A DNA stretch of 64,000 bases. Origin: Desulfatitalea tepidiphila. GTDB taxonomy: Bacteria; Desulfobacterota; Desulfobacteria; Desulfobacterales; Desulfosarcinaceae. Positions 26,697 through 38,316 of the stretch are shown here, piece after piece; position 1 is the first letter of the stretch, and each line of letters opens with the position of its first letter. The position numbers and the translations under genes were made by a program. The notes under the pieces were generated by a model, which saw only the letters and a program-made list of their open reading frames with translations, ran no database searches and had not been told where the DNA came from. Location: NCBI RefSeq assembly GCF_001293685.1, contig NZ_BCAG01000003.1, forward strand, positions 620,001 through 684,000, written 5' to 3'.

Positions 26697-27721
26697 AAAA
26701 AGTGCCCCTGAAAGACGCTGTCGGCTCCGATCTGGCCCATGACATCACCGAAGTGAGACCGGGTGAGTTCAAGGGGCCGGCCTTTCGCAAAGGACATCGG
26801 GTCTGTGATGAAGATATTTGCCGTTTGCAGAGATTGGGCAAGAACCATCTCTACCTGATCGATCTAGAAAATGACGAACTCCACGAAAACCAGGCAGCCA
26901 GAATGCTTGCGACGGCCATCGCCGGGGAAGGCGTAACGTGGGAAGACAATCCCAAAGAGGGCAAAATCGAAATGTTTGCGCAGCACGACGGCCTACTGCG
27001 GATTGATATGGCCGCACTGGGGGCCTTGAACATGATCGATGAAGTGATGTGCGCCACCCTGCACAACCATACACGCGTCAGAAAGGGAGAATTGGTGGCG
27101 GCCACAAGGTCCATCCCGCTGGTCGTCAAGCGCGAACCGATCGAACGAGCGGTCGCCATCGCATGCCAGAAAGGCGCCGTGGTGGAAGTTAAAGCGATGA
27201 AAAAGGCGCGTGCCGGACTGATCATCACCGGCAACGAGGTTTATCATGGCCTAATTCAGGACGGCTTCGAGCCCATTTTAAAAAAGAAACTGACCGACCT
27301 TGATGCATCCGTCGAGACCGTCGATTTTCAACCGGACGATGCCGAACGTATAGCCAGGGCAATTCGAAACCAGGTGGATAAAGGATTTGATCTTTTACTG
27401 CTCACAGGCGGTATGAGCGTGGACCCGGATGACGTCACCCGGCACGGCATACAAATGGCCGGCGCCGAAGAGGTTCACTACGGTGCGGCCGTGCTGCCGG
27501 GCGCCATGTTTCTGGTTGCCTATATTGGCGAAACGCCGATTCTGGGCGTACCAGCCTGTGGCCTGCATCATCGTGCCACGGCACTGGATCTGGTCTTGCC
27601 GCGAGTTCTCGCAGGTGAACGAATCGGCAAAGCACAGTTGGCATTTCTGGGACACGGCGGGTTGTGCCGACAGTGCCCAAAGTGTTCGTTTCCCAACTGC
27701 GCGTTTGGGAAAGGCCTTTAA
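26690..27721 (+). CDS. MoeA-like molybdopterin-binding protein
   Basis: 343 residues. The C-terminal half is a MoCF/MoeA-type molybdopterin-binding fold (AGLIITGNEVYHGLIQD, then LLLLTGGMSVDPDD and the GVPACGLHH segment). The N-terminal half lacks most of the classical MoeA domain I-II pattern. The tail has a cysteine cluster CRQCPKCSFPNCAFGKG that could bind metal. MoeA inserts Mo or W into the adenylated pterin; a specialised form could serve the two oxidoreductases here. Overlaps the FmdE gene by 7 bp. Confidence 0.85.
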   Translation: MLKKVPLKDAVGSDLAHDITEVRPGEFKGPAFRKGHRVCDEDICRLQRLGKNHLYLIDLENDELHENQAARMLATAIAGEGVTWEDNPKEGKIEMFAQHDGLLRIDMAALGALNMIDEVMCATLHNHTRVRKGELVAATRSIPLVVKREPIERAVAIACQKGAVVEVKAMKKARAGLIITGNEVYHGLIQDGFEPILKKKLTDLDASVETVDFQPDDAERIARAIRNQVDKGFDLLLLTGGMSVDPDDVTRHGIQMAGAEEVHYGAAVLPGAMFLVAYIGETPILGVPACGLHHRATALDLVLPRVLAGERIGKAQLAFLGHGGLCRQCPKCSFPNCAFGKGL

Positions 27722-28046
27722 AACAAAAATCTTTATATTGAAAGAGGAAAAAAAGCGCACTGCCAAGAGCACAATTCTATTATGTGGAGGAGGCGTTTAT
27801 GGTCAAGGCGGAAAATACCAAAGTTAGGAGTATATATCGGGTGCCCACAAGTTTACTTTATACTTGATCTCGTATTTGGCTATGACGGCTATCAATATCT
27901 TCGCATCCTTTACGAGAAAGGCGCTATTATTTAAAGGATTCCGAGGAATTTGCACAGTTTCAAGCCCCCTGTGTCAGGATAGATGTCGCCTCCCGGTGAC
28001 GGGTTTTGTTTGAACAAAGGAGGGGCGATCCTGTAAAGAAGGGTTC

Positions 28047-28541
28047 ATGAAACAATATCCTGACGAATTGAAAAACAGCATTATCGCCAGAATGATGCCA
28101 CCGAACAATGAGTATGTTCCGGCCTTATCCCAGGAGACCGGAATACCCAAGGACACCCTGTATGCCTGGCGGATCAAGCATCGCAGAGGCAATCAGCGGC
28201 TGCGAGCGGAACACATTGACAGTACCAGCAAAATCAGCAGTGCCGACAAATTCGACATTGTGGTTGAGACCGCTTCTATGAATGAGGCGGAACTGAGCCA
28301 ATATTGCCGTCGCAATGGTGTGTACCCGGAACAAATCAAGGCCTGGCAGGACTCATGTCGCAGCGCGAATTTGCCGTTGACCAACCGGATCGACAAGCAA
28401 AAGAATCGAGAGTTGACCAAAGAGAATAAGCAGCTCAAGGCCGAATTGAGGCGCAAGGAAAAAGCCCTGGCAGAAGCGGCGGCGTTGTTGATATTGAAAA
28501 AAAAAGTCCAGGAACTCTGGGGGGACCCAGAGGACGACTGA
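28047..28541 (+). CDS. IS3-type transposase OrfA
   Basis: 164 residues: an N-terminal HTH-type DNA-binding region (ALSQETGIPKDTLYAWRIKH), a second HTH-like part (LSQYCRRNGVYPEQIKAWQ), and a C-terminal leucine-zipper-like coiled coil (RELTKENKQLKAELRRKEKALAE). Near its end is a run of nine A (28497-28505) read as AAA AAA AAA. The OrfB frame is open from this run, so a -1 slip here would give the OrfAB fusion transposase, as known for IS3 elements. Confidence 0.88.
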   Translation: MKQYPDELKNSIIARMMPPNNEYVPALSQETGIPKDTLYAWRIKHRRGNQRLRAEHIDSTSKISSADKFDIVVETASMNEAELSQYCRRNGVYPEQIKAWQDSCRSANLPLTNRIDKQKNRELTKENKQLKAELRRKEKALAEAAALLILKKKVQELWGDPEDD

Positions 28542-28588
28542 CAGATCTGTCGCAGCGGCTTAACGCGTTAAAATTAATTGACAGTGCC

Positions 28589-29590
28589 ATGGGCTCTGGA
28601 GCACGCTTGACAGCTGTCTGCGACATATTGAAAACTACACCAAGGACCATTGAACGCTGGCGTCATCAAACAGCTCAGGGCGATCGGCGAAAGATGGCTG
28701 CCGAGAAGCGGGTGCCGGCAAACAAGCTGACTCAATCCGAACGCAGCAAGATATTGCAGATCTGCAACCAGGCCGAGTTTGCAAACATGGCGCCCAATCA
28801 AATTGTGCCGGCCTTGGCCGATCAGGGCAGCTACGTTGCCTCGGAATCGAGTTTTTACAGGATCCTGCGACAGGAAAGACAACTGGCTCTCAGGGGCCGG
28901 GCCAAAGCCCCGGTGCACAAACGTCCTGATTGCATTGAGGCGACGGGTGCCAACCAGTTGTGGAGTTGGGACATAACCTATCTGCCGAGCGCCATCAGGG
29001 GGTTGTTTTTCTACCTGTATATGATCATGGACGTATACAGCAGAAAGATAGTGGGCTGGGAAGTATATAACAGCGAATCAGCTGAAAATGCAGCTTTGTT
29101 GATACGCAAAACATGCCTTAAGGAGACAACCACGGGCTCACCATTGATACTGCATTCAGATAATGGTTCGCCAATGAAAGGCGCTACGATGTTGGCCACA
29201 TTGCAAAAGCTCGGGGTGGTCCCTTCGTTCAGTCGCCCTTCGGTGAGTAACGACAATGCCTATTCAGAGTCGCTGTTTAAGACCTTAAAATACCATCCGG
29301 GGTATCCGGACAGTGCATTTGACGATATGGACAAGGCTCGGCAGTGGGTATTGAAATTCGTGCATTGGTACAATGAAATCCATCACCACAGCGCGATAAA
29401 GTTTGTCACCCCCGGTCAACGCCACCGCGGGCAAGATATTGAGATATTGAAAAGACGGGACGCGCTGTATTGTAAAGCAAAGGGCCGGCACCCAGAACGC
29501 TGGGCAGGTATCTGCCGAGATTGGAATCCGGTTCGGGTAGTGAGTTTGAATCCGAATAATGAATTGAAGCGATTGAGTCGAGCAGCATGA
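28589..29590 (+). CDS. IS3-type transposase OrfB (DDE integrase core)
   Basis: 333 residues from the ATG at 28589; the same frame is open back to the A9 run, supporting expression as an OrfAB fusion by -1 frameshifting. The rve-type catalytic core is intact: Asp in WSWDITYLPS, the second Asp in LILHSDNGSPM, and the Glu in NDNAYSESLFKTLKYHPGYP. The C-terminal HHSAIKFVTPGQRH motif is typical. No stop or frameshift damage was seen, so the element may be active. Confidence 0.9.
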   Translation: MGSGARLTAVCDILKTTPRTIERWRHQTAQGDRRKMAAEKRVPANKLTQSERSKILQICNQAEFANMAPNQIVPALADQGSYVASESSFYRILRQERQLALRGRAKAPVHKRPDCIEATGANQLWSWDITYLPSAIRGLFFYLYMIMDVYSRKIVGWEVYNSESAENAALLIRKTCLKETTTGSPLILHSDNGSPMKGATMLATLQKLGVVPSFSRPSVSNDNAYSESLFKTLKYHPGYPDSAFDDMDKARQWVLKFVHWYNEIHHHSAIKFVTPGQRHRGQDIEILKRRDALYCKAKGRHPERWAGICRDWNPVRVVSLNPNNELKRLSRAA

Positions 29591-29652
29591 ATCAGTGGAG
29601 AAGAGCTATTTGAAAAATAGAGATGATGCCAATCATCTCATAGCTACCCAAA

Positions 29653-29730
29653 AGCCCCCTGCAGACAGGTCGTCAAGGGCGCGGTCTTCAGCGTTCATCT
29701 TGACCCTTGACGAACTGGCTGCAGGGGGCT
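29653..29730. repeat. Long near-perfect hairpin inside the IS right end
   Basis: AGCCCCCTGCAG (from 29653) pairs with CTGCAGGGGGCT (ending 29730), and TCGTCAAGGG pairs with CCCTTGACGA further in, with a short non-paired bulge in each arm. The same AGCCCCCTG also occurs at 27963-27971 beside the left end, so part of this may be a subterminal transposase site. It may also act as a bidirectional terminator. Confidence 0.6.
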
Positions 29731-29777
29731 ACCTGAGCAAAAGTTAGAATGGGAAAAAAGCGACATCTTTCTTGACA

Positions 29778-30020
29778 ACGACCGCAAGTGCCCCGCCTGC
29801 AAGTTTCGAAACATAAAACAAGAAAGGTGCTAAATCGTGCGATAAATCAAGATGAGGTTTTTCAGTGCACGTCGTTCATACATGTGGGTCTTTAAATACA
29901 TGTTTTGGAGTTATCCCGCAACAGTAAATTCATAGATAAATCTCAGCTTTTGGTAAAGGCGACAACTATGACGTTAAAAAAACTATTATTTTTAAGGAGA
30001 GCAACTAAAGGAGGAAGCGT
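29778..30020. other. Leader region of the Sec oxidoreductase gene
   Basis: Immediately after the IS a short frame encodes a Cys-x-x-Cys tail (KCPACKFRN) and stops at 29832; it may be the 3' end of a gene broken by the IS. The rest is AT-rich, presumably promoter and leader, ending in a strong AAAGGAGG ribosome site before 30021. No specific promoter could be fixed. Confidence 0.4.
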
Positions 30021-32120
30021 ATGAAAAAATCAGTTGAAAGGGAGTGGAAACATGTATTTTGCCATGTCTGTCCAAGTCATTGCGCTCGTAAGGTAGCAGT
30101 TGAAGATGGAAAAATTGTGGCAGTGGAGCCGGACCCTGAGAGCGGCTATGCAAGTGCAAAGTGTGTTTATAACAAAAGTGAAATAATGAAAGAAGTCTGT
30201 ACACATCCAGATCGCCTAAAATTTCCACAAAAAAGATTGGGGCCAAAAGGGAGCGGCAAGTGGAAACGAATTTCTTGGGATGAAGCTTTGGATACAATTG
30301 CCAAAAAAATCTTGAAATATAAGGCTGATTTCGGTCCGGATAGTCTTGCTATGATTTTGGGAGAGCCTAAAGAGATGGAATTCGCATTCGCACAAAGATT
30401 TGCGTCTGCATTTGGTACCGCAAACACTGTTACGCCAGGGAATTATTGAGGAGTGCCTAGACTGGCAGGTGCCAGTTCTGTTTTCGGAAATATTTTTTTT
30501 GCAGACCCTGGTCCCAAAACTGGGCTCCTATTGCTATGGGCATTTAACCCGATAGGCCTGATGGGTGGTGAGATGAGAGAGAATATAGAAGCAGCACTCT
30601 CAGCAGGCGCCAAATTGGTGGTCGTCGATCCGAAAAGAATCCAACTTGCGAGGAAAGCCGATCTTTGGCTTGCACCTAGACCCCAAAGCGATGGGGCTTT
30701 AGCGATGGGTATTATTAAAATAATAATCGAAGAAAAGCTATATAATGCAGATTTTGTATCCAATTGGACAATTGGGTTAGAAGAACTTGAAAAAGAAATT
30801 AAATCATTTTCATTAGAAGATGTGGAAAATGCTACCTGGATACCGAAGAAAAAAATTGAACAGGCAGCTAGATTACTTGCAGATTCAAAAAACCAGCCTG
30901 TTTGTTACTTTGAAGGAAATGGCATAGAGAGGAGCATTCATAGTTTTCAAGCATGCCGTGCAATAAATGTCTTGAGAGCTCTTCTCGGTGACGTGAACAC
31001 CCCGGGTGGAAATTCTGAATTGACACCCCAACCTTTCGCAAGAATGGGGCGTTTTTATTTCCCGAAAGGAGTTCAAAGAAGAACAGATAGAGGCCTTTGT
31101 AGTCCCTTTCGTATAGGTGCCCCACACCTCTATGTTCCGCCACAGTCGCTAGTGAGGGCAATCTTGGACGAGAAGCCATATCCGATAAAGGCTGGCATAA
31201 ATATCTTGACCAATCCCCTTGTGAGCTATCCGGATACGGAGGCTACTTACAATGCGTTTTTGAAACTCGATTTTTTAGTTGTGTCAGAATTATTTCCCAC
31301 TCCAACATCAGCGGTTGCCGATATTGTTCTTCCAGCGGCTTGGGGTGGGGAGCATGAATCGGTGGGGTATTGGCCAGGATGGCAGCAACAAATTAGGGCT
31401 TATCCAAAGTTGGTCGATCCTCCCGGGGAGGCCAAACCGAATTCAGAATGGCTAAATGAGCTTGCAAAGAGAATTGGACTCGGAAAGTATTTTTGGGAGA
31501 ATTGGCAAGATTGTTTGGATGAAATTCTTGAACCGGCCGGGATCACCTATGAGAAGTTAAAGGAGGTGAGATGTCTTGAAGCGACAAGGCTTTTCAGAAA
31601 ACCAGATGAGGGAATTTTCCATACCGAATCGGGAAAAATTGAGCTATACTCTAATATGCTGAAACTGCTGGGCTATTCGCCAACTCCGGTATTTAGGGAA
31701 TTAACCGATTTTCTTTATGATCCTTCCGAAGAATATCCTCTGCTTATGTTCAACGGTAAGGAAGCTGCATTCATGAATAACGGATATAAACATGTTAAGA
31801 TGGCGAGGGCGAAAAGACCTTATCCAACGGTGGATTTAAATCCTAAAACGGCTGAGAAACTAGGCGTTGAGAAAGATGAATGGGTTTACATTGAAACAAA
31901 AAAGGGAAGAGTTAAACAGGTACTTAAACTGGACCCGGATCTCCATCCTAATCTGGTATTCCCATCGATGGGGTGGTGGTTCCCAGAAGAGTCTGACGAT
32001 CTTTTTCAATTTAGGAAATCAAACATAAATGTACTTACCTCTTGTGATCCGCCTTATGATCCTGAGTTAGGCGCAGTGGAGTTAGGAGCCATTCCGTGTA
32101 AAGTTTATAAGGCTGATTAA
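30021..32120 (+). CDS. Selenocysteine-containing Mo/W-pterin oxidoreductase (Sec143 by UGA recoding)
   Basis: One frame of 699 codons interrupted only by TGA at 30447-30449. Protein similarity continues unbroken across it: before the TGA the frame gives TPGNY and after it GVPRLAGASS, aligning with TPGCYCGVQTAAA of the paralogue at 18391-20514, so the UGA falls at Cys140 of that enzyme, the metal-ligand position. Immediately downstream is a hairpin with a GGU apical loop (see SECIS). Fe-S ligands are Cys14, Cys17, Cys21 and Cys48. No signal peptide. The C-terminal domain aligns with the paralogue to the end (WWFPEESDD, SNINVLTS, IPCKVYKAD). A Sec-W or Sec-Mo ligand, as in some formate dehydrogenases, is inferred. 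The substrate is unknown. Confidence 0.88.
30447..30480 (+). promoter_or_regulatory. Bacterial SECIS element (UGA plus hairpin)
   Basis: UGA at 30447-30449 is followed by a perfect 6-bp stem ACTGGC (30461-30466) / GCCAGT (30471-30476) with apical loop AGGT. The GGU starts after 18 intervening bases, the same spacing as I recall for E. coli fdhF. This fits SelB-directed selenocysteine insertion. Confidence 0.8.
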
Positions 32121-32183
32121 AAGTGCCGGTGAACCCTTGATCTGTAATGGTTAAGACGGGGGGTGGATTGGTCCGAATGAAAA

Positions 32184-32447
32184 ATGGGCGCTGATAATTG
32201 GGTGGTGTTTTTGCTTCGGTCTGTGGATGATTCTCTATACTGCGGCATTACAAACAAACTGGAAAAACGGTTATTGAAGCATACCTCAGGTAAATGCACC
32301 AAGTACACAAGATCCCGTTTGCCCTTACAATTGGTCGGTGTCAGTTCCAAAATGACAAAGAGTGCGGCGTTGAAACTGGAATACTGTCTGAAAAGGACTC
32401 CGACGCCCGACAAGATAGCTGCATTGGAACGATTGAACACAAATTGA
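32184..32447 (+). CDS. GIY-YIG nuclease superfamily protein (YhbQ-like)
   Basis: 87 residues, a single GIY-YIG domain: VVFLLRSVDDSLYCGITNKLEKRLLKH has the variant motif (VFLL...YCGIT) with the catalytic Arg in KRLLKH, then TKYTRSRLPLQLV and a conserved ALKLEYCLK glutamate helix. Members such as YhbQ are small housekeeping endonucleases of uncertain role. It lies between two UGA-containing genes in the same orientation, 20 bp from the next. Nothing indicates a link to selenium. Confidence 0.88.
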   Translation: MGADNWVVFLLRSVDDSLYCGITNKLEKRLLKHTSGKCTKYTRSRLPLQLVGVSSKMTKSAALKLEYCLKRTPTPDKIAALERLNTN

Positions 32448-32466
32448 GCAAGGAGGTAATTTTCAC

Positions 32467-32898
32467 ATGCTCCCGAATATCAATGAGGAAGACTTGATGA
32501 CAGACCTGATCTGCTATTGTTTCAATTACACCAAAAAAGATATTGAACGGGATCTGCGACAAAACGGCAAGTCCACGATCATGGAGAAAATTCTTGCCGA
32601 AAAGCGGATGGGTGGATGTCAATGCGCTGTTAAAAATCCCAAAGGGCGCTGATGTCTTTCCGATGTCCGCCAGGTGGTGGAAAAATACATAACATATAGA
32701 TTTAACAGCAAAAATATCATTTTTCGAGGAATTCTTACATGCCCCCGCAAAATCATAGGCGTCATATTCTGCATCCTGGCAGTCGGCATCTATGCTTGGA
32801 AATACAAAGAGCCGCCCCTGTGCCGACCATGTATCATGTTGCCCCTTGGTATCGGCGTCGGGTACGCCGTTTATTGGTTGGTGAGGCGGATGATTTGA
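32467..32898 (+). CDS. Candidate selenoprotein: BFD-like [2Fe-2S] domain plus membrane anchor (Sec62)
   Basis: Frame of 143 codons with one internal TGA (32650-32652). Residues 14-63 match the BFD/CopZ-N type iron-sulfur domain: Cys16-x-Cys18 (ICYCFNYTKKDI), Cys51-x-Cys53 (GCQCAVKNPKGR), then UGA at 62 and Cys63 (CLSDVRQVVEKY). In homologues I know, this last spot is a CC pair after NP-G-, so Sec replaces its first Cys. A SECIS-like hairpin lies at the right distance. The frame continues into two hydrophobic segments (GVIFCILAVGIYAW and LPLGIGVGYAVYWLV) with a CRPC between them, suggesting inner-membrane anchoring. Ribosome site AAGGAGGT is 10 nt before the ATG at 32467; an ATG at 32497 is an alternative. 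Possible roles: electron or metal/selenium transfer. Confidence 0.75.
32650..32681 (+). promoter_or_regulatory. Candidate SECIS of the BFD-like selenoprotein
   Basis: After UGA (32650-32652), TCCGCC (32666-32671) pairs with GGTGGA (32676-32681), five Watson-Crick pairs and one G-U, around an AGGT loop identical to the loop of the SECIS at 30447. The GGU starts after 20 bases. Both features fit bacterial SECIS rules. Confidence 0.7.
32833..32894 (+). repeat. Direct repeat copy 1 (3' end of the BFD-like gene)
   Basis: About 62 bp starting ATCATGTTGCCCCTTGG and including the last codons of the BFD-like gene. An imperfect second copy lies at 33934-33996. Roughly 80% of positions agree by eye. 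Confidence 0.65.
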
Positions 32899-32985
32899 TT
32901 AAAATCGTTTATTTATGATTCTCCAACATAAAAGCCTTCCTAAAACAATTATTCTATGCACCGGAGATATGATCATATTCGCTTT

Positions 32986-33798
32986 TTATGAGATCCTGTT
33001 TGTCCTCTGGGTATTTCTTATATTTTTTTCTAACATGCTGATATTTAATTCTATAGATCGAATAGAAGAATCAATTGAATCAATTTGTGGCATTAGCTGA
33101 AATTCAACTGCCATTTCTTCAATCTTGTTAAGATTTAAACCAACCGCCTGCAATATTTCATCAGCGCTTTCTGTTTCGAAAAGCAATATGTCGAATATCA
33201 AGCAATTACCTTGGGAGGTGAAGCCAAGAGTGGTTGAATGACCGCCTTTGTACCACCCTTTGTTTTTATTGTGTTTTTGATATGTAATCCAGTCATATTT
33301 AGGGAAAACTTTTCTTGCCAACGCCTCCTGCCATTCGGCAAGGTAAAAACAACCACCATAACATTGGTACCACCTATAAGTATTTCTTTTTGGTAGATAT
33401 TTCGAATAAATGCGTTCGAATTTTTCTTGAAATTTTAGGTTCACTTCCTTGACTTTTTTATCTTCTGAGCCTTGATAAAGACTATTGTCATAAACAACAA
33501 TACCAGTAAAATCGACCCCCAAGCTTTCTAATATTTTATTGTATTCATGAAATAATTCGGAATATTCTGGATCTTCCCCCTGTTTATCAGATGCATATCC
33601 ATGATGAATATAGGCTTTTGTATATTCCCATGGACCGTGTCCATTCTTTACATCCCACTGTGGCAAATGATTCCAATTAATAGGAAGCTTCGAAAATTGA
33701 AGCATGCCCTTATTAAGGAGTCCCTCTACTTCAGAATCATTAAGGTGTGGCTCGACAAGCTTCCAGTTCTTTTTGAAGTTAAAAACATTAATACGCAT
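32986..33798 (-). CDS. Hypothetical protein (270 aa) between direct repeats
   Basis: AT-rich leftward gene with several aromatic-rich segments (NWNHLPQWDVKNGHGPWEYTKAY; WYQCYGGCFYLAEWQEALA) and a C-terminal coiled-coil-like helix (EEMAVEFQLMPQIDSIDSSIRSIELNISMLEKNIRN). No signal peptide or known motif recognised. Base composition and orientation differ from its neighbours, and it lies between two copies of the 3' end of the BFD-like gene, both of which suggest recent transfer as a cargo gene. Confidence 0.7.
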   Translation of the reverse strand: MRINVFNFKKNWKLVEPHLNDSEVEGLLNKGMLQFSKLPINWNHLPQWDVKNGHGPWEYTKAYIHHGYASDKQGEDPEYSELFHEYNKILESLGVDFTGIVVYDNSLYQGSEDKKVKEVNLKFQEKFERIYSKYLPKRNTYRWYQCYGGCFYLAEWQEALARKVFPKYDWITYQKHNKNKGWYKGGHSTTLGFTSQGNCLIFDILLFETESADEILQAVGLNLNKIEEMAVEFQLMPQIDSIDSSIRSIELNISMLEKNIRNTQRTNRIS

Positions 33799-33933
33799 AT
33801 TTCACCCCCATATTAAGTGCGTGTTTGTTCGTATATCGGTTGATTCACAATTTTCATGAGAGAATATTTATTCAATATAAAAATCAACAGGGTAAAAACA
33901 GACCAAGCCAACGCCAGATTTCTATACAATTGA

Positions 33934-33996
33934 ATCATGTTGCCCCTTGGCATCGGCGTCGGGTGAGTTGGGTATTGGTTGGTGGGGAGGATGATA
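33934..33996 (+). repeat. Direct repeat copy 2 (duplicated 3' end of the BFD-like gene)
   Basis: Imperfect copy of 32833-32894, no longer part of an open gene. It lies just left of the satellite attachment site. Sequence 33997-34173 is AT-rich with no gene seen. Confidence 0.65.
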
Positions 33997-34173
33997 TCTT
34001 AAGTGGGGTTCGAGCAGTTTAAAATTGCCTCATTCTGTGTGAGAATCTGTGTGAGAAAAAGTTTTCAAAACTGACCAAAACGTGGAAAATATACAAAAAT
34101 GTAAAAAATGTATACCTAATAAATTCAATATTATAATATAAAATTAGGAGGTTAGGAAACTCAGAGGTTCTGC

Positions 34174-34219
34174 CTGTTAACCACTAGGTTGTAGGTTCAA
34201 GTCCTACTCAGGGAGCCAA
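34174..34219 (+). other. Left attachment repeat: tRNA-Asn 3' fragment
   Basis: 46 bp identical to 44797-44842: GTT anticodon region, variable loop, complete T-arm (GTAGG-TTCAAGT-CCTAC), acceptor 3' strand and CCA. The matching 5' acceptor strand (TCCCTGA) is absent upstream; the preceding bases only vaguely resemble a D-arm. So this is an att core or degenerate tRNA relic, not a working tRNA gene. Confidence 0.85.
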
Positions 34220-34226
34220 CAAAATC

Positions 34227-34264
34227 AAGGGCTTAGACGAAAAATCTAAGCCCTTTTTCTTTTT
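34227..34264 (+). terminator. Intrinsic terminator next to the left att
   Basis: AGGGCTTAGA pairs with TCTAAGCCCT across a CGAAAAA loop, then a long T-rich tract. Strong rightward terminator just inside the element. Confidence 0.85.
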
Positions 34265-34274
34265 TGGTTTCAAG

Positions 34275-34302
34275 ATACCCACCATCATACCCACCACCCA
34301 CC
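34275..34302. promoter_or_regulatory. Left integrase arm-type sites (ATACCCACCA repeats)
   Basis: ATACCCACCA at 34275-34284 and 34287-34296, then CCCACC. The same 10-mer occurs twice at the other end of the element (44655-44664, 44667-44676), with inverted copies at 44601-44620. Placement inside both att repeats fits integrase or AlpA arm sites. Confidence 0.5.
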
Positions 34303-34361
34303 AAAAACGAAAGCCCCAGGCATCGCGCCCAGGGCCTTGTCATTTAAATGAGATGGTCAGC

Positions 34362-35153
34362 TCATGCCGGGCAAGCCATCGCCTTATAGTATCGAGACTC
34401 GATCCCTCGGTGAGATACCGGGCGCCTTACGACCTGAGCATACCGTTCGGCAATCCTCATGAATGCCTGCCGATGGGATAGACCCTGATCGACGTAGTTC
34501 TCGACCATTTTCACGACCTGCCCACGGGTCAGCTTGCCATCAATAGGTGGATCATCGATAGGGGTTTCTTCCTGGAGTTCCTGGCCATCGAATAGCGCCG
34601 CGTAGGTGTCTGCCATCCGCTTGACCTTTTTGTTCACTACGTCTCGGTCCCGGTTGAACATTTTTGCCACCTCGATCTGAGTGAAACCGAACACATTGCA
34701 CAGCAGGAAAAACTTTTGATCGTCGTTGAACTTGTCGGGCTTTGCGGCCTTTATGCCCTCGCGCCTGGCGTCCAGGGCCTCGATGATGCGCTCCACATGC
34801 TCCAGGGCTTGCTTGTACATGGAGACGATGCTGTTTTCCTCGACGCCATACTTTTCGGCCAGCAGGGAAACCGGCATCCGATTGAAAAAACGATCCACGA
34901 ACACGGCCGTCTTTCTCAGGCGTAGGTCCTCGGAGCTGAATTGAATCATATCATCGGCGCTAAAATCTTCGACCTGGTTGTCCCTCAGCTCGCTGAAATG
35001 AACTTCACGGCCCATTGGATAACAGACGATCATGTCGTCGAAATGGCGCTCCATGACTCGGTTCCCGGCCCGTAGGATGCGCTCGACTTCCTTGCATGGT
35101 CGCCGGCATCGGTCCCGTTTCTTACAATCCGCGCAAAGTGCATGATGTTCCAT
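34362..35153 (-). CDS. HTH protein of the satellite (possible small terminase or regulator)
   Basis: 263 residues. N-terminal Cys cluster CADCKKRDRCRRPC, then two helix-turn-helix-like regions: RMPVSLLAEKYGVEENSIVSMYKQALEHVERI and FGFTQIEVAKMFNRDRDVVNKKVKRM. Good ribosome site AAGGAG. Last gene of the leftward morphogenesis operon, after the portal gene. No other gene in the element looks like a small terminase, and DNA-binding HTH domains are usual in those proteins, so this is a candidate for the packaging recognition subunit; a sigma-like regulator is equally possible. Confidence 0.6.
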   Translation of the reverse strand: MEHHALCADCKKRDRCRRPCKEVERILRAGNRVMERHFDDMIVCYPMGREVHFSELRDNQVEDFSADDMIQFSSEDLRLRKTAVFVDRFFNRMPVSLLAEKYGVEENSIVSMYKQALEHVERIIEALDARREGIKAAKPDKFNDDQKFFLLCNVFGFTQIEVAKMFNRDRDVVNKKVKRMADTYAALFDGQELQEETPIDDPPIDGKLTRGQVVKMVENYVDQGLSHRQAFMRIAERYAQVVRRPVSHRGIESRYYKAMACPA

Positions 35154-35230
35154 GGGGTTGCTCCTTTGGTCGGCTGGAAAGTTTTGAAGGGGGGTGCCGG
35201 CCGCTCGCTCCTGCGGCCGGCGGGGGCGGC

Positions 35231-36373
35231 CTACTCGGTGGCGAGAGTGTTGCCGCCATCCATGGCGTTCATATTCTCGGCCCGCCGGACTTCATTTTTG
35301 GTCATGAAACCGGCATCCAGGGCGATCTTGTATGCCTCAAAGCGGGTCTTGGTATCGCCGCGCAGTAGATCATGGGTCAGGTATTCAGCGAAGTAGCGTT
35401 TCTTTTCGGATTCGGTCAGCAGGGACTTAAAGACGGCCTGCTCGATGCGGGTCAACCATGGCCTTAAGGTATGGGTCAAAAAAGAGCGGTTCTGTTCGGT
35501 GACGTTCGAATATGTGGATCGCTCGTAATCCATGACCAGGTTCAGCGGCACTCTGAATATGCGCGCAATCTCTACGACGCTAAACTTCATGCTATCGATC
35601 ATTTGGCTATCTTCCGGGGAAACACCCACGGCCTGCCATTTCAGGTCGCCGGCCAGCACGGCCACCTTGTGGCTTTTCTTCGATCCTGCAAATCCCTCGT
35701 TCCAGTATTCCCGGATCGCTTTGGCCTGATCGACGTTGATGCTATGCGGTGAGGTCAGGATGCCACCCGGTGAGGCATCGTTTTTGAAGTATTTGGCGCT
35801 GTATTCCCTGATCGCAATGGCGCTGCCAAAGGTGTTCCTGCACATGGCCAGAGGCGAATAGCCGATGATCCCATCAGAGGACAGGCCACGGATATGCAGG
35901 ATGTCTGAGGACCGATATTTGCGTTCCTGGCCATCGTTCTGATGGGTATAGATCAACTCCCGATCCTTCAGTTCGATGGACATCCGGCCCGGATGCAATG
36001 GCCACAGGGCCACGACCTCGCCGGCCTCGCGCTCGATGTAGGCAAAGGCATTGCCCCTGAGGGCCAGGTGCCCGGCCATCATCTCCCACAACTCAGAGGC
36101 GGTCATCAACGGATTGGGGATGTCATGCAGGATGCGGTATAAAGAGAAGTTTCTCGCCCGGTGCCGGTCGCCGTTCTCCTGGCGCTCGTACACGATCAAC
36201 GGCAAGGATGCGATGGACTCGGCCAGGACCCTGGTACATGCGAACACGGCCGGAATCCCCATCACGGTATCGTCGGTCACCCTGGCGCCGGAAGTCGTTT
36301 CCTCGCCGCCATGATACTGATCGTAGCGTGCCCAGGATGCCGAACGGCGCTTCAGGAAGTCAAATAGACCCAT
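35231..36373 (-). CDS. Phage portal protein (HK97 type)
   Basis: 380 residues, usual portal length. Signature segments: IPAVFACTRVLAESIASLPLIVYE, LWEMMAGHLALRGNAFAYIER, HIRGLSSDGIIGYSPL, and ARIFRVPLNLVMDYERSTYSNVTEQNRSF. Portals form the ring at the capsid vertex through which DNA is packaged. It lies downstream of the capsid gene here, whereas in most HK97-like clusters the portal precedes protease and capsid. Ribosome site GAGGT. Confidence 0.94.
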   Translation of the reverse strand: MGLFDFLKRRSASWARYDQYHGGEETTSGARVTDDTVMGIPAVFACTRVLAESIASLPLIVYERQENGDRHRARNFSLYRILHDIPNPLMTASELWEMMAGHLALRGNAFAYIEREAGEVVALWPLHPGRMSIELKDRELIYTHQNDGQERKYRSSDILHIRGLSSDGIIGYSPLAMCRNTFGSAIAIREYSAKYFKNDASPGGILTSPHSINVDQAKAIREYWNEGFAGSKKSHKVAVLAGDLKWQAVGVSPEDSQMIDSMKFSVVEIARIFRVPLNLVMDYERSTYSNVTEQNRSFLTHTLRPWLTRIEQAVFKSLLTESEKKRYFAEYLTHDLLRGDTKTRFEAYKIALDAGFMTKNEVRRAENMNAMDGGNTLATE

Positions 36374-36417
36374 ATCATTACCTCAGAAGAAAAGGGGCGG
36401 TCACCCGCCCCATTGGG

Positions 36418-38157
36418 TTATCCTTCAGCACGTTCGGCCAGGGTCACACACCAGGACAGGGAATCGCCGTTGCGGGGGCTGATGTAGGTGTTCCAGGTGC
36501 CCATGCCGTCAACACGAACGATCACGCGATAGGACATCAAATCGTTGGTCCAGCCGGGGATGTTGGATTTCTCCAGGCGCAAGTCTTTGCGGAGGCCGAT
36601 GGCGTATTGAGAGAGGTCAACAAACACCAGATCGCCGGCATCACCCAGGACGGGCAAGTTCGGGGTAAAAATCAGAGGTCGGCCCAAAAGGGTGAATTGC
36701 CCGTTGGATTCTTTGAACACTTCGACACGGCTGCCGCCGGTGCCGATGGCAATGCTCATGGTGAGAAGTTGCGGAATCGTCGTTTCGTTGGCCAGCCAGA
36801 CAGCCTTGGAGCGGCCGGCGGGGTACATTCTGGCGAACATGTTGACCGCGTTTTCAAAAATGACGGTATCGGCCGATTGACCGGACTCTTTCGCCACTTC
36901 GATCTTGGCAGGGTTCTGCAAAATGCCTTGAGGCATACCGGCCCCGGTGCCGTTAATGAAGTGGTAATCCAGGCCCAGGCTGATGGACTTCTTCATGGCC
37001 ATTTCGAGTTGAGACTCGAAACCCTGGCCGTCTTCGCGCAATTCGTTGCTGATGTTGCAAAAGATGGCGCCTTTGTGGGCTTTAAAGGTAATGGATCGCA
37101 GCTTGCCGTCTTGAGCGGTGCCCTCGGCATTTTCCGCCAAAAACTCCATGGCGAAACCGCCATACAGCAGGCCGCCGGACTGATCCTTGCCATCCCATCC
37201 GGGCACGGTGCGGGTCGAACTGGTCATCGGCCATACGGTTGCCCTCGGTCTGATGATCTCGTTCTGGAGAGACTCGTCCAGCCATTGCGCTGCCAGGGGA
37301 TCGGGCACGGAAAAACCGCCGGCCGATCCGGTGCCCTCGATCATGACGCGCTTGAACTTCTCCATCTCGGCATCGTCGGCATCGCGCACTTCACCGAACA
37401 TGCCCTTGTAGGAGCGGTCCGCCGCCGGTCCGCCCTCGAACCGGATGGTCCGGTCCTGCTTTTTCTCCAGTTCGGGCTTGAATGTGCCCGAGCGTTTGGC
37501 GAGGTCTTCCTTGCCGGCCTTGGCCAGTTCGATGGCCTCGATGCGGCCGTCAAGGGTGCGGATTTCGCCCTTCAGCTCATCGAAACGAGCGGTCGCGGCA
37601 TCGTCCAGGTTCTCGGTCATGGCCAGCTCGGTGAGTTCATCGACGGCCCTTTTCTTCGCCTTCAAAATGTCGTTGTAATCCATGGTAGTCTTTTCCTTTT
37701 TGATGATAGTAGTAATTGAACGGCCAATACCGGCCGCCGGATCGGCGCCGGCCGCCACCAGGCTGCACTCATAGGGCTGCCACTTGGTCACCAGGTAACC
37801 TTTGGCGGTCCTTTTCTTCTCTTTGATGAAATATCCGATGGACAGGTTCCGAAGTATTCCGTCCTGGATGTCTCCCCATATGCGGTCTTGTGATTTGCTG
37901 ATGCGAAGCAGACCGCGCAGCTTGCCGCCTATGACCTGGAGACTTTCGACAATGCCCACGGGCAAGGATCGCTCATTGTGAGCGGATATGAGCGGCAGGG
38001 GGGCACGGGTCAGGTCGATGGCATCAGGATCATGGGAGAGGACTTCTTCGCCGTCATAGCGTCTTACGGGGTAGGTGGTGGATAGTGTGGCTTCTACGGT
38101 TCTTTGATCGGCATCACGAATCGATCCGACCTCGATTTGAAACGTACGTTTCTCCAT
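36418..38157 (-). CDS. Fused prohead protease and major capsid protein (HK97 type)
   Basis: 579 residues from the ATG at 38157, preceded by GAAAGGA. Residues 1-155 are an HK97-type prohead protease: LPLISAHNERSLPVGIVES holds the catalytic His, and GILRNLSIGYFI the Ser region. From about residue 165 (MDYNDILKAKK) starts a scaffold-like coiled coil (delta domain), then the capsid core (GGFSVPDPLAAQWLDESLQNE, RATVWPMTSSTRTVPGWDG, FKAHKGAIFCNISNELREDG, and WLANETTIPQLLTM). The fusion makes one gene supply protease, scaffold and shell; self-cleavage would free the capsid domain. A long plus-strand frame opposite (36208-37719) is a shadow. Confidence 0.93.
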   Translation of the reverse strand: MEKRTFQIEVGSIRDADQRTVEATLSTTYPVRRYDGEEVLSHDPDAIDLTRAPLPLISAHNERSLPVGIVESLQVIGGKLRGLLRISKSQDRIWGDIQDGILRNLSIGYFIKEKKRTAKGYLVTKWQPYECSLVAAGADPAAGIGRSITTIIKKEKTTMDYNDILKAKKRAVDELTELAMTENLDDAATARFDELKGEIRTLDGRIEAIELAKAGKEDLAKRSGTFKPELEKKQDRTIRFEGGPAADRSYKGMFGEVRDADDAEMEKFKRVMIEGTGSAGGFSVPDPLAAQWLDESLQNEIIRPRATVWPMTSSTRTVPGWDGKDQSGGLLYGGFAMEFLAENAEGTAQDGKLRSITFKAHKGAIFCNISNELREDGQGFESQLEMAMKKSISLGLDYHFINGTGAGMPQGILQNPAKIEVAKESGQSADTVIFENAVNMFARMYPAGRSKAVWLANETTIPQLLTMSIAIGTGGSRVEVFKESNGQFTLLGRPLIFTPNLPVLGDAGDLVFVDLSQYAIGLRKDLRLEKSNIPGWTNDLMSYRVIVRVDGMGTWNTYISPRNGDSLSWCVTLAERAEG

Positions 38158-38316
38158 GTGGCATCCTTTCAAAAAAAAGAGGGACAGGTAACGATGGTGC
38201 GGCATCGCTCCCTGCCCCCCTCTCCGCTTCGCAAACCGGCCAGCCATCCGGTCAACGAAAAATTACATTTATGTCATTCCATAAAATAAATATTACATAT
38301 TTGTCAAGTGAATTAT

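Follow-up and report, generated by a model that had tools for sequence, protein, structure and literature searches.

A 143-codon frame at 32467-32898, on the forward strand of the 64,000-nucleotide stretch of Desulfatitalea tepidiphila DNA analysed here (the window), is, with good probability, a natural fusion of a gene for a CopZ/BFD-like Fe-S selenoprotein with a membrane gene of the LCRPU family that carries cysteine in this copy. Translation of the frame meets a stop only once before the terminal TGA, at an in-frame TGA (32650-32652), and from the comparison of sequences it is almost certain that this codon encodes selenocysteine (Sec62). As the initial annotation had read it, this TGA lies inside one frame of 143 codons, residues 57-67 being NPKGR-U-CLSDV, and two membrane segments follow, with hydropathy windows that begin at residues 88-97 and 122-123. 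Residues 1-77 (32467..32697, forward strand) make up the predicted BFD/CopZ-like [2Fe-2S] domain, with C16, C18, C51, C53, U62 and C63, as judged from the translation, an alignment of 19 sequences, the NCBIfam model NF047645 and a profile match to 2hu9. The two-helix membrane domain at 32740..32895, on the same strand, is a Cys variant (CRPC) of the LCRPU family, supported by hydropathy, alignment and a score of 97.2 bits with profile A2. The novelty here lies in the family of membrane selenoproteins and in the fusion, the Fe-S part alone being already catalogued.

Selenocysteine at codon 62

Codon 62 is TGA in 108 of the 109 stretches read, which comprise the window, two paralogues, close loci, L108 and 68 further rows of the class search among the matches listed, with two records counted twice (L113 is L040 and L135 is L043). 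The remaining stretch, L171 from genome G262, has TAA and, because a conserved cysteine has been lost as well, is probably a pseudogene or otherwise degenerate. At least 137 of the 389 class genomes match some part of the query, weak partial matches and matches to the membrane part only being included. Cultured relatives that carry the Fe-S gene include Desulfopila aestuarii DSM 18488, Desulfosediminicola flagellatus and Desulfovibrio cuneatus. Class-search rows without a stop were examined as L101-L107, among the matches listed. Read by eye over the six rows L101-L106, the weak and more distant relatives L102, L103 and L104 have cysteine at position 62 (G-x-CC), while L101 has arginine there and looks degenerate; L107 stops short of this position. 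L105 and L106, in which GRUC again has a TGA, belong to a BFD-like group further removed, with a differently spaced cysteine pattern. Homologues with UGA or cysteine at position 62 are thus found, and the recurrence of the TGA in other genomes and in the paralogues excludes a sequencing error, two points on which the initial annotation had seen its reading as vulnerable. Past the UGA, the C-terminal CLSDVRQVV is kept in the alignment of 19 sequences.

The SECIS-like hairpin that had been proposed is present at 32666..32681 (forward strand) as UCCGCC-AGGU-GGUGGA, with the stem formed by 32666-32671 and 32676-32681 around the AGGU loop, 13 nt past the TGA and with the GGU at 20 nt. Its fold energy is ordinary in comparison with shuffled sequences (z of -1.2 and -0.3 in the folding check), so that energy provides no evidence, and conservation was examined instead. 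In a set of 31 Fe-S sequences, from which nine of 40 loci had been left out because they did not fit the pattern (all nine carry TGA at codon 62), 93.1% of the cells are paired, as against at most 66.4% at slid positions. Eight cells show double changes, with C-G replaced by U-A in seven sequences and another pair changed from C-G to A-U in one. The paired percentage, the count of double-change cells and the covariation score were each reached by none of 500 shuffles; the number of pairs with a double change (2) was reached by 59 of the 500 and the number of further pair types (6) by 58. Rfam, run over 27000-37000 of the window, gave five matches, all far below the gathering scores.

The machinery for selenocysteine is encoded in the genome, including the selB and tRNA-Sec on which the initial annotation had made its case depend: tRNA-Sec scores 73.4 bits and selB, selA and selD score 374, 620 and 380 bits respectively, with selD itself carrying a TGA. 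Taken with the conservation of the TGA and the covariation of the hairpin, this upholds the reading of UGA-62 as selenocysteine in a BFD/CopZ-like Fe-S domain. As SelA occurs in 359 of the 389 class genomes, co-occurrence with it says little; genome G130 has the Fe-S gene and no SelA match, and of the 12 genomes with the membrane family only G353, which is 81% complete, lies outside the 359.

Placement of the Fe-S domain

Six Cys or Sec positions (16, 18, 51, 53, 62 and 63) are invariant in all 19 aligned Fe-S sequences. Four of them, C16, C18, C53 and C63, reproduce in 19 of 19 the CxC...C...C-C pattern of the CopZ/BFD type and, together with the likeness to the solved CopZ, predict the binding of a cluster. 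By profile, the domain matches the N-terminal domain of CopZ in 2hu9 (E=0.0013), which has a CYC...C...NPxGRCC pattern like that of the window domain and differs from it in having Cys in place of Sec and in having no extra Cys51. In the alignment U62 is opposite C118 and C63 opposite C119; the cysteines of 2hu9 in the matching stretch are C75, C77, C109, C118 and C119, none of which is opposite C51. The cluster ligands of 2hu9 we take to be C75, C77, C109 and C119. Six invariant positions set against four ligands leave two over and, with C119 presumed to be a ligand, U62 would be the neighbour of a ligand, so that C51 and U62 would be the pair left over. The proposal in the initial annotation that Sec62 replaces a cluster ligand is unproven. 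L103 and L104, which have cysteine at position 62, also have no extra cysteine, and L102 has one at another spacing; these are too few to weigh.

The domain scores below the cut-off of each of the family models compared. For Pfam PF04324 (Fer2_BFD), with a cut-off of 26 bits, the scores are 17.7 bits for the whole frame and 19.7 bits for the domain, 16 of the 19 Fe-S sequences matching this model at E up to 0.01. NF047645 (CopZ_Nterm_CC), which all 19 match, gives 58.4 bits against a cut-off of 100, and NF045877 (CopZ_Nterm_CU) gives 32.0 bits against 190, in both cases with only the C-terminal part of the model covered; NF047645 and 2hu9 are both longer N-terminally than the window domain. 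For these reasons it is described here as CopZ/BFD-like with the form 1 motif, outside those models. AlphaFold2 gave a fair model of the BFD domain (pLDDT 82.4) and, from the single sequence, a poor one of the fusion (mean pLDDT 52). No informative match to the domain model was obtained with Foldseek or VIA-align, so the link to CopZ rests on sequence.

The initial annotation had considered the selenoprotein family not to be described. For the Fe-S part this does not hold, as Table 1 of a 2026 review (PMC13188914) lists a '(2Fe-2S)-binding protein (copper chaperone Copz family) form 1' (cd10141) with the motif GxUC, and a CopZ form 2 with the motif CU. The review credits the CopZ-family selenoproteins to Zhang and Gladyshev 2008, in the main text of which (PMC2398784) the words CopZ and 2Fe-2S are absent. 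The window has GRUC with its TGA, and a few of the 109 stretches have KKRUC or KSRUC instead of GxUC. It is very probable that the Fe-S part belongs with the catalogued GxUC form, with which, as the table describes it, the window shares the motif, a CopZ/BFD-like Fe-S domain and a single Sec; the likeness to that form, with its reference protein WP_245779778.1, is one of motif and description. The window copy differs in being fused to a two-helix membrane domain. NF045877 (the Csac_0668 family 2Fe-2S cluster-binding (seleno)protein, CopZ form 2) represents the same domain, to which the match is weak; it differs in that its motif is CU by the table of the review, where the window has UC, and in that the model is longer N-terminally. 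At L027, by eye, frames for a MerT-like transporter, an ArsR-like regulator and an AhpD-like protein adjoin the Fe-S selenoprotein gene.

The LCRPU membrane genes

The C-terminal 50 residues of the query match, in the class search, separate loci that have a TGA of their own. The genes found there are 52-55 codons long, and their consensus is MLPKIIGIIxGILAVGVYAWKFKETPLCRPUIMLPLGLGVGYAVYW, in which the TGA forms a CxxU motif (LCRPU). By profile search the family is present in 12 of the 389 class genomes, from nine genera, with one match each in nine of the 12; in a phylum sample of 297 genomes it was found in none other than that of the window, and the searches made of viral contigs, plasmids and phages did not find it. 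TGA stands at the CxxU position in each of the 13 distinct unbroken stretches of 46 codons that lie outside the window, and also in L060 and in the divergent L177 (CMPU), both of which fall outside the 46-codon pattern. The codon tests left out two broken stretches of 16 (L051 and L055), counts of TGA only leaving out the window copy too, and retained L057 despite its rearranged N-terminal half; L060 and L177 were not included. In the window copy this codon is TGT (Cys122, 32830..32832, forward strand), whereas every other place found by its motif has TGA; the TGT also found in L009 is the same place. The exchange is itself counted in favour of the membrane family being one of selenoproteins.

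The codons 8 to 11 past the TGA, GGC GTC GGG TAC, are nearly frozen at their silent positions. They are unchanged in 48 of 52 cases, as against a simulated mean of 31.4, and in 29 of 32 among eight divergent members (one per genus where genera are given), neither value being reached in 5000 simulations. A 5-bp hairpin with the loop CGGGU takes its 5' strand, its loop and the beginning of its 3' strand from these codons. In 15 distinct sequences the hairpin is 100% paired and shows no double changes, so that its support comes from the constraint on silent sites and not from covariation. In none of the six sequences folded does it fold better than shuffles, and in two of them (L052 and L042) it is not the minimum-energy fold. 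Variants of the frozen codons are GTA GGT TAC in L065 and GTA GGC TAC in L177, by eye adding one more A-U pair; the loop of L177 has GGC and no GGU. Among the eight divergent members pN/pS is 0.34 before the TGA and 0.49 after it.

The contexts of the membrane genes vary. In L076 and L077 they follow HU/IHF genes. The gene in L078 is upstream of that for cytochrome bd subunit I, and in L052 one gene separates it from a bd-like/cytochrome c gene; the genomes of L052 and L078 are unrelated.

A scan of 12 members, L177 excluded, against Pfam and NCBIfam gave no convincing match; the best were FixS (E=0.0066, four members) and TmcB of NCBIfam (E=0.018, one member), which were taken as chance. DUF6132 (PF19628), considered as a candidate relative, was rejected, the model being found in none of 30 genomes, the window's own included. 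By names, motifs and models the family was not recognisable in the table of PMC13188914. That table does list a putative mercuric transport selenoprotein (MerT), which as catalogued is alike in being a membrane-transport selenoprotein with a C/SxxU motif; the seven Pfam families that any of the 12 CRPU members matched do not include MerT. Among the matches listed, no title in the literature on small or novel membrane selenoproteins describes the LCRPU family, and the papers listed for 'CRPU' are unrelated. From the sequence record we hold with high confidence that the CRPU genes form a real selenoprotein family, and it is likely that the family is undescribed. If so, its members would rank with the smaller selenoproteins known and would present a minimal membrane redox motif. 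They would be missed by standard annotation, which stops at the UGA 31-34 codons in.

The probable fusion and its surroundings

Two paralogous loci, in opposite orientation, lie on contig C6 of the same genome. At both the Fe-S gene stops at a TGA, and some 40 bases on there is a membrane gene that has a start and a Sec TGA of its own. In contrast to these, the window copy has AGA at the position of the Fe-S gene's stop (32698..32700), an extra base, aligned at 32747, within the former start region of the membrane gene (32739..32748), which brings that gene into the frame of the Fe-S gene, and TGT for the second TGA at 32830, all on the forward strand. The loss of the first stop, the gain of one base and the change of TGA to TGT together produce one fused frame with cysteine. 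The natural start codon of the membrane gene is out of frame in this copy. Of the 31 Fe-S sequences only that of the window runs into the membrane part, a later TGA being taken as a stop; the other 30 finish shortly past the domain. As these end after the domain, and the membrane genes sit elsewhere, the anchor does not characterise the Fe-S family. The view of the initial annotation that it is part of the selenoprotein has to be given up, since outside the window copy it is encoded by a small gene that stands apart and has its own UGA. The membrane part of the window differs by 9 synonymous and 11 other changes from one paralogue and by 4 and 12 from the other. Eight other full or partial copies of the membrane gene were found in this genome by profile, several of them broken or truncated. 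A ninth, at 33931..33996 and thus 1.1 kb downstream of the fused gene (forward strand; tblastn E=9.5e-5, also blastn), is a fragment that consists of the 3' half of the gene, in decayed form, from its TGA onwards.

Were UGA-62 an ordinary stop, the Fe-S domain would finish at residue 61, as annotation assumes by default (two ORFs are listed for 32467-32898) and as the TAA of the degenerate L171 might suggest; with TGA and not TAA or TAG at this codon in all the other stretches, with CLSDVRQVV conserved beyond it and with a hairpin that covaries, this is extremely improbable. The UGA of the small CRPU genes could likewise be a true stop, the DNA beyond it serving, for example, as a recombination site of nearby elements. 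Such a role would fit the truncated copies at 33931 and in L093, which start at the TGA, and the common 3' flank of some copies, near one of which there is an integrase gene. It is nonetheless improbable, given conservation at the protein level on both sides of the TGA out to distant genomes, the CxPU context, the hairpin at SECIS distance, the cysteine in the window copy, and the single match in most of the genomes, in contexts that differ.

A serious alternative is that the Fe-S gene is a real selenoprotein gene and the fused tail of the window copy a functionless, decaying remnant of a duplication, or an assembly error. The changes in the tail are not mainly synonymous, so that it could be decaying or mis-assembled, and the small excess of synonymous changes, the out-of-frame start and the nine other copies or fragments, several broken or truncated, all favour this. 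Against it, the tail is open and in frame over its entire length after three separate changes (the lost stop, the one base and TGA to TGT), and its substitutions are in many cases conservative. The fusion is probably a real sequence; that the fused protein is made and functional is a tentative proposition, to which we give slightly less than even credence.

On the reading of the frame as a fusion of the two genes, SelB and tRNA-Sec read UGA-62 as Sec through the hairpin just downstream. The second gene normally encodes a selenoprotein, a two-helix membrane protein of ~52 residues with CxxU at the start of the second helix and its own SECIS. As loss of the stop and the inserted base join the genes, the membrane part would be made only if Sec enters at UGA-62. 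The cluster may pass electrons to an adjoining C51/U62 selenenyl-sulfide, a pair beside the cluster that would in principle resemble ferredoxin-thioredoxin reductase. At the membrane surface an anchored CRPC/CRPU pair would act as another thiol/selenol couple; the CRPC motif of the fusion could be the partner of C51/U62 or a downstream couple, and the two couples together might form a redox or metal-handling relay. This redox mechanism is speculative, and we consider it rather unlikely in this form. In its broad outline, with the LCRPU proteins as undescribed 52-residue selenoproteins of the Desulfobacterota and the copy here, fused and with Sec replaced by Cys, as a selenium-gated, membrane-tethered redox relay, the proposal is possible and is put forward tentatively. 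The window copy probably combines a natural Sec-to-Cys exchange with the fusion of two selenoprotein genes, and since it is caught between close paralogues the order of stop loss, base gain and Sec-to-Cys change is open to study.

Directly upstream of the fused gene, at 32184..32447 on the forward strand, is a gene for a GIY-YIG domain (Pfam PF01541, 48.4 bits). DNA resembling it, found with blastn, also lies ahead of the paralogous cassettes and, in L044, where there is no Fe-S gene, ahead of the membrane gene. Further upstream, at 30021-32120 (forward strand), the frame for a molybdopterin oxidoreductase (formate dehydrogenase/thiosulfate reductase type) is interrupted at 30447 by an in-frame TGA. 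The context of this TGA is GNY-U-GVPR, probably at the position of the Mo ligand, and a hairpin, ACUGGC-AGGU-GCCAGU, then follows; from these features the oxidoreductase is likely to be a second selenoprotein, 2 kb upstream of the fused gene.

Between the fused gene and the truncated copy of the membrane gene, the window has at 32930-33996 a gene of 270 aa with no Pfam match. A homologue of it, at 1496-2736 in L093, is flanked by two pieces of membrane-gene 3' half, and the truncated copy in the window and one of those in L093 both begin at the Sec codon. The 3'-half copies (33931-34235 in the window; L056, L057 and L050/L063) have a common 3' flank, with 245-309 aligned bases in all, which is found in this genome and in a second genome of the genus, in one case near a tyrosine recombinase gene; the shared flank may be connected with a site of integration. 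Judged by eye, the region is flanked, at 28047-29590 and 34362-38247, by a pair of IS3-type transposase genes and by phage genes for portal and capsid.
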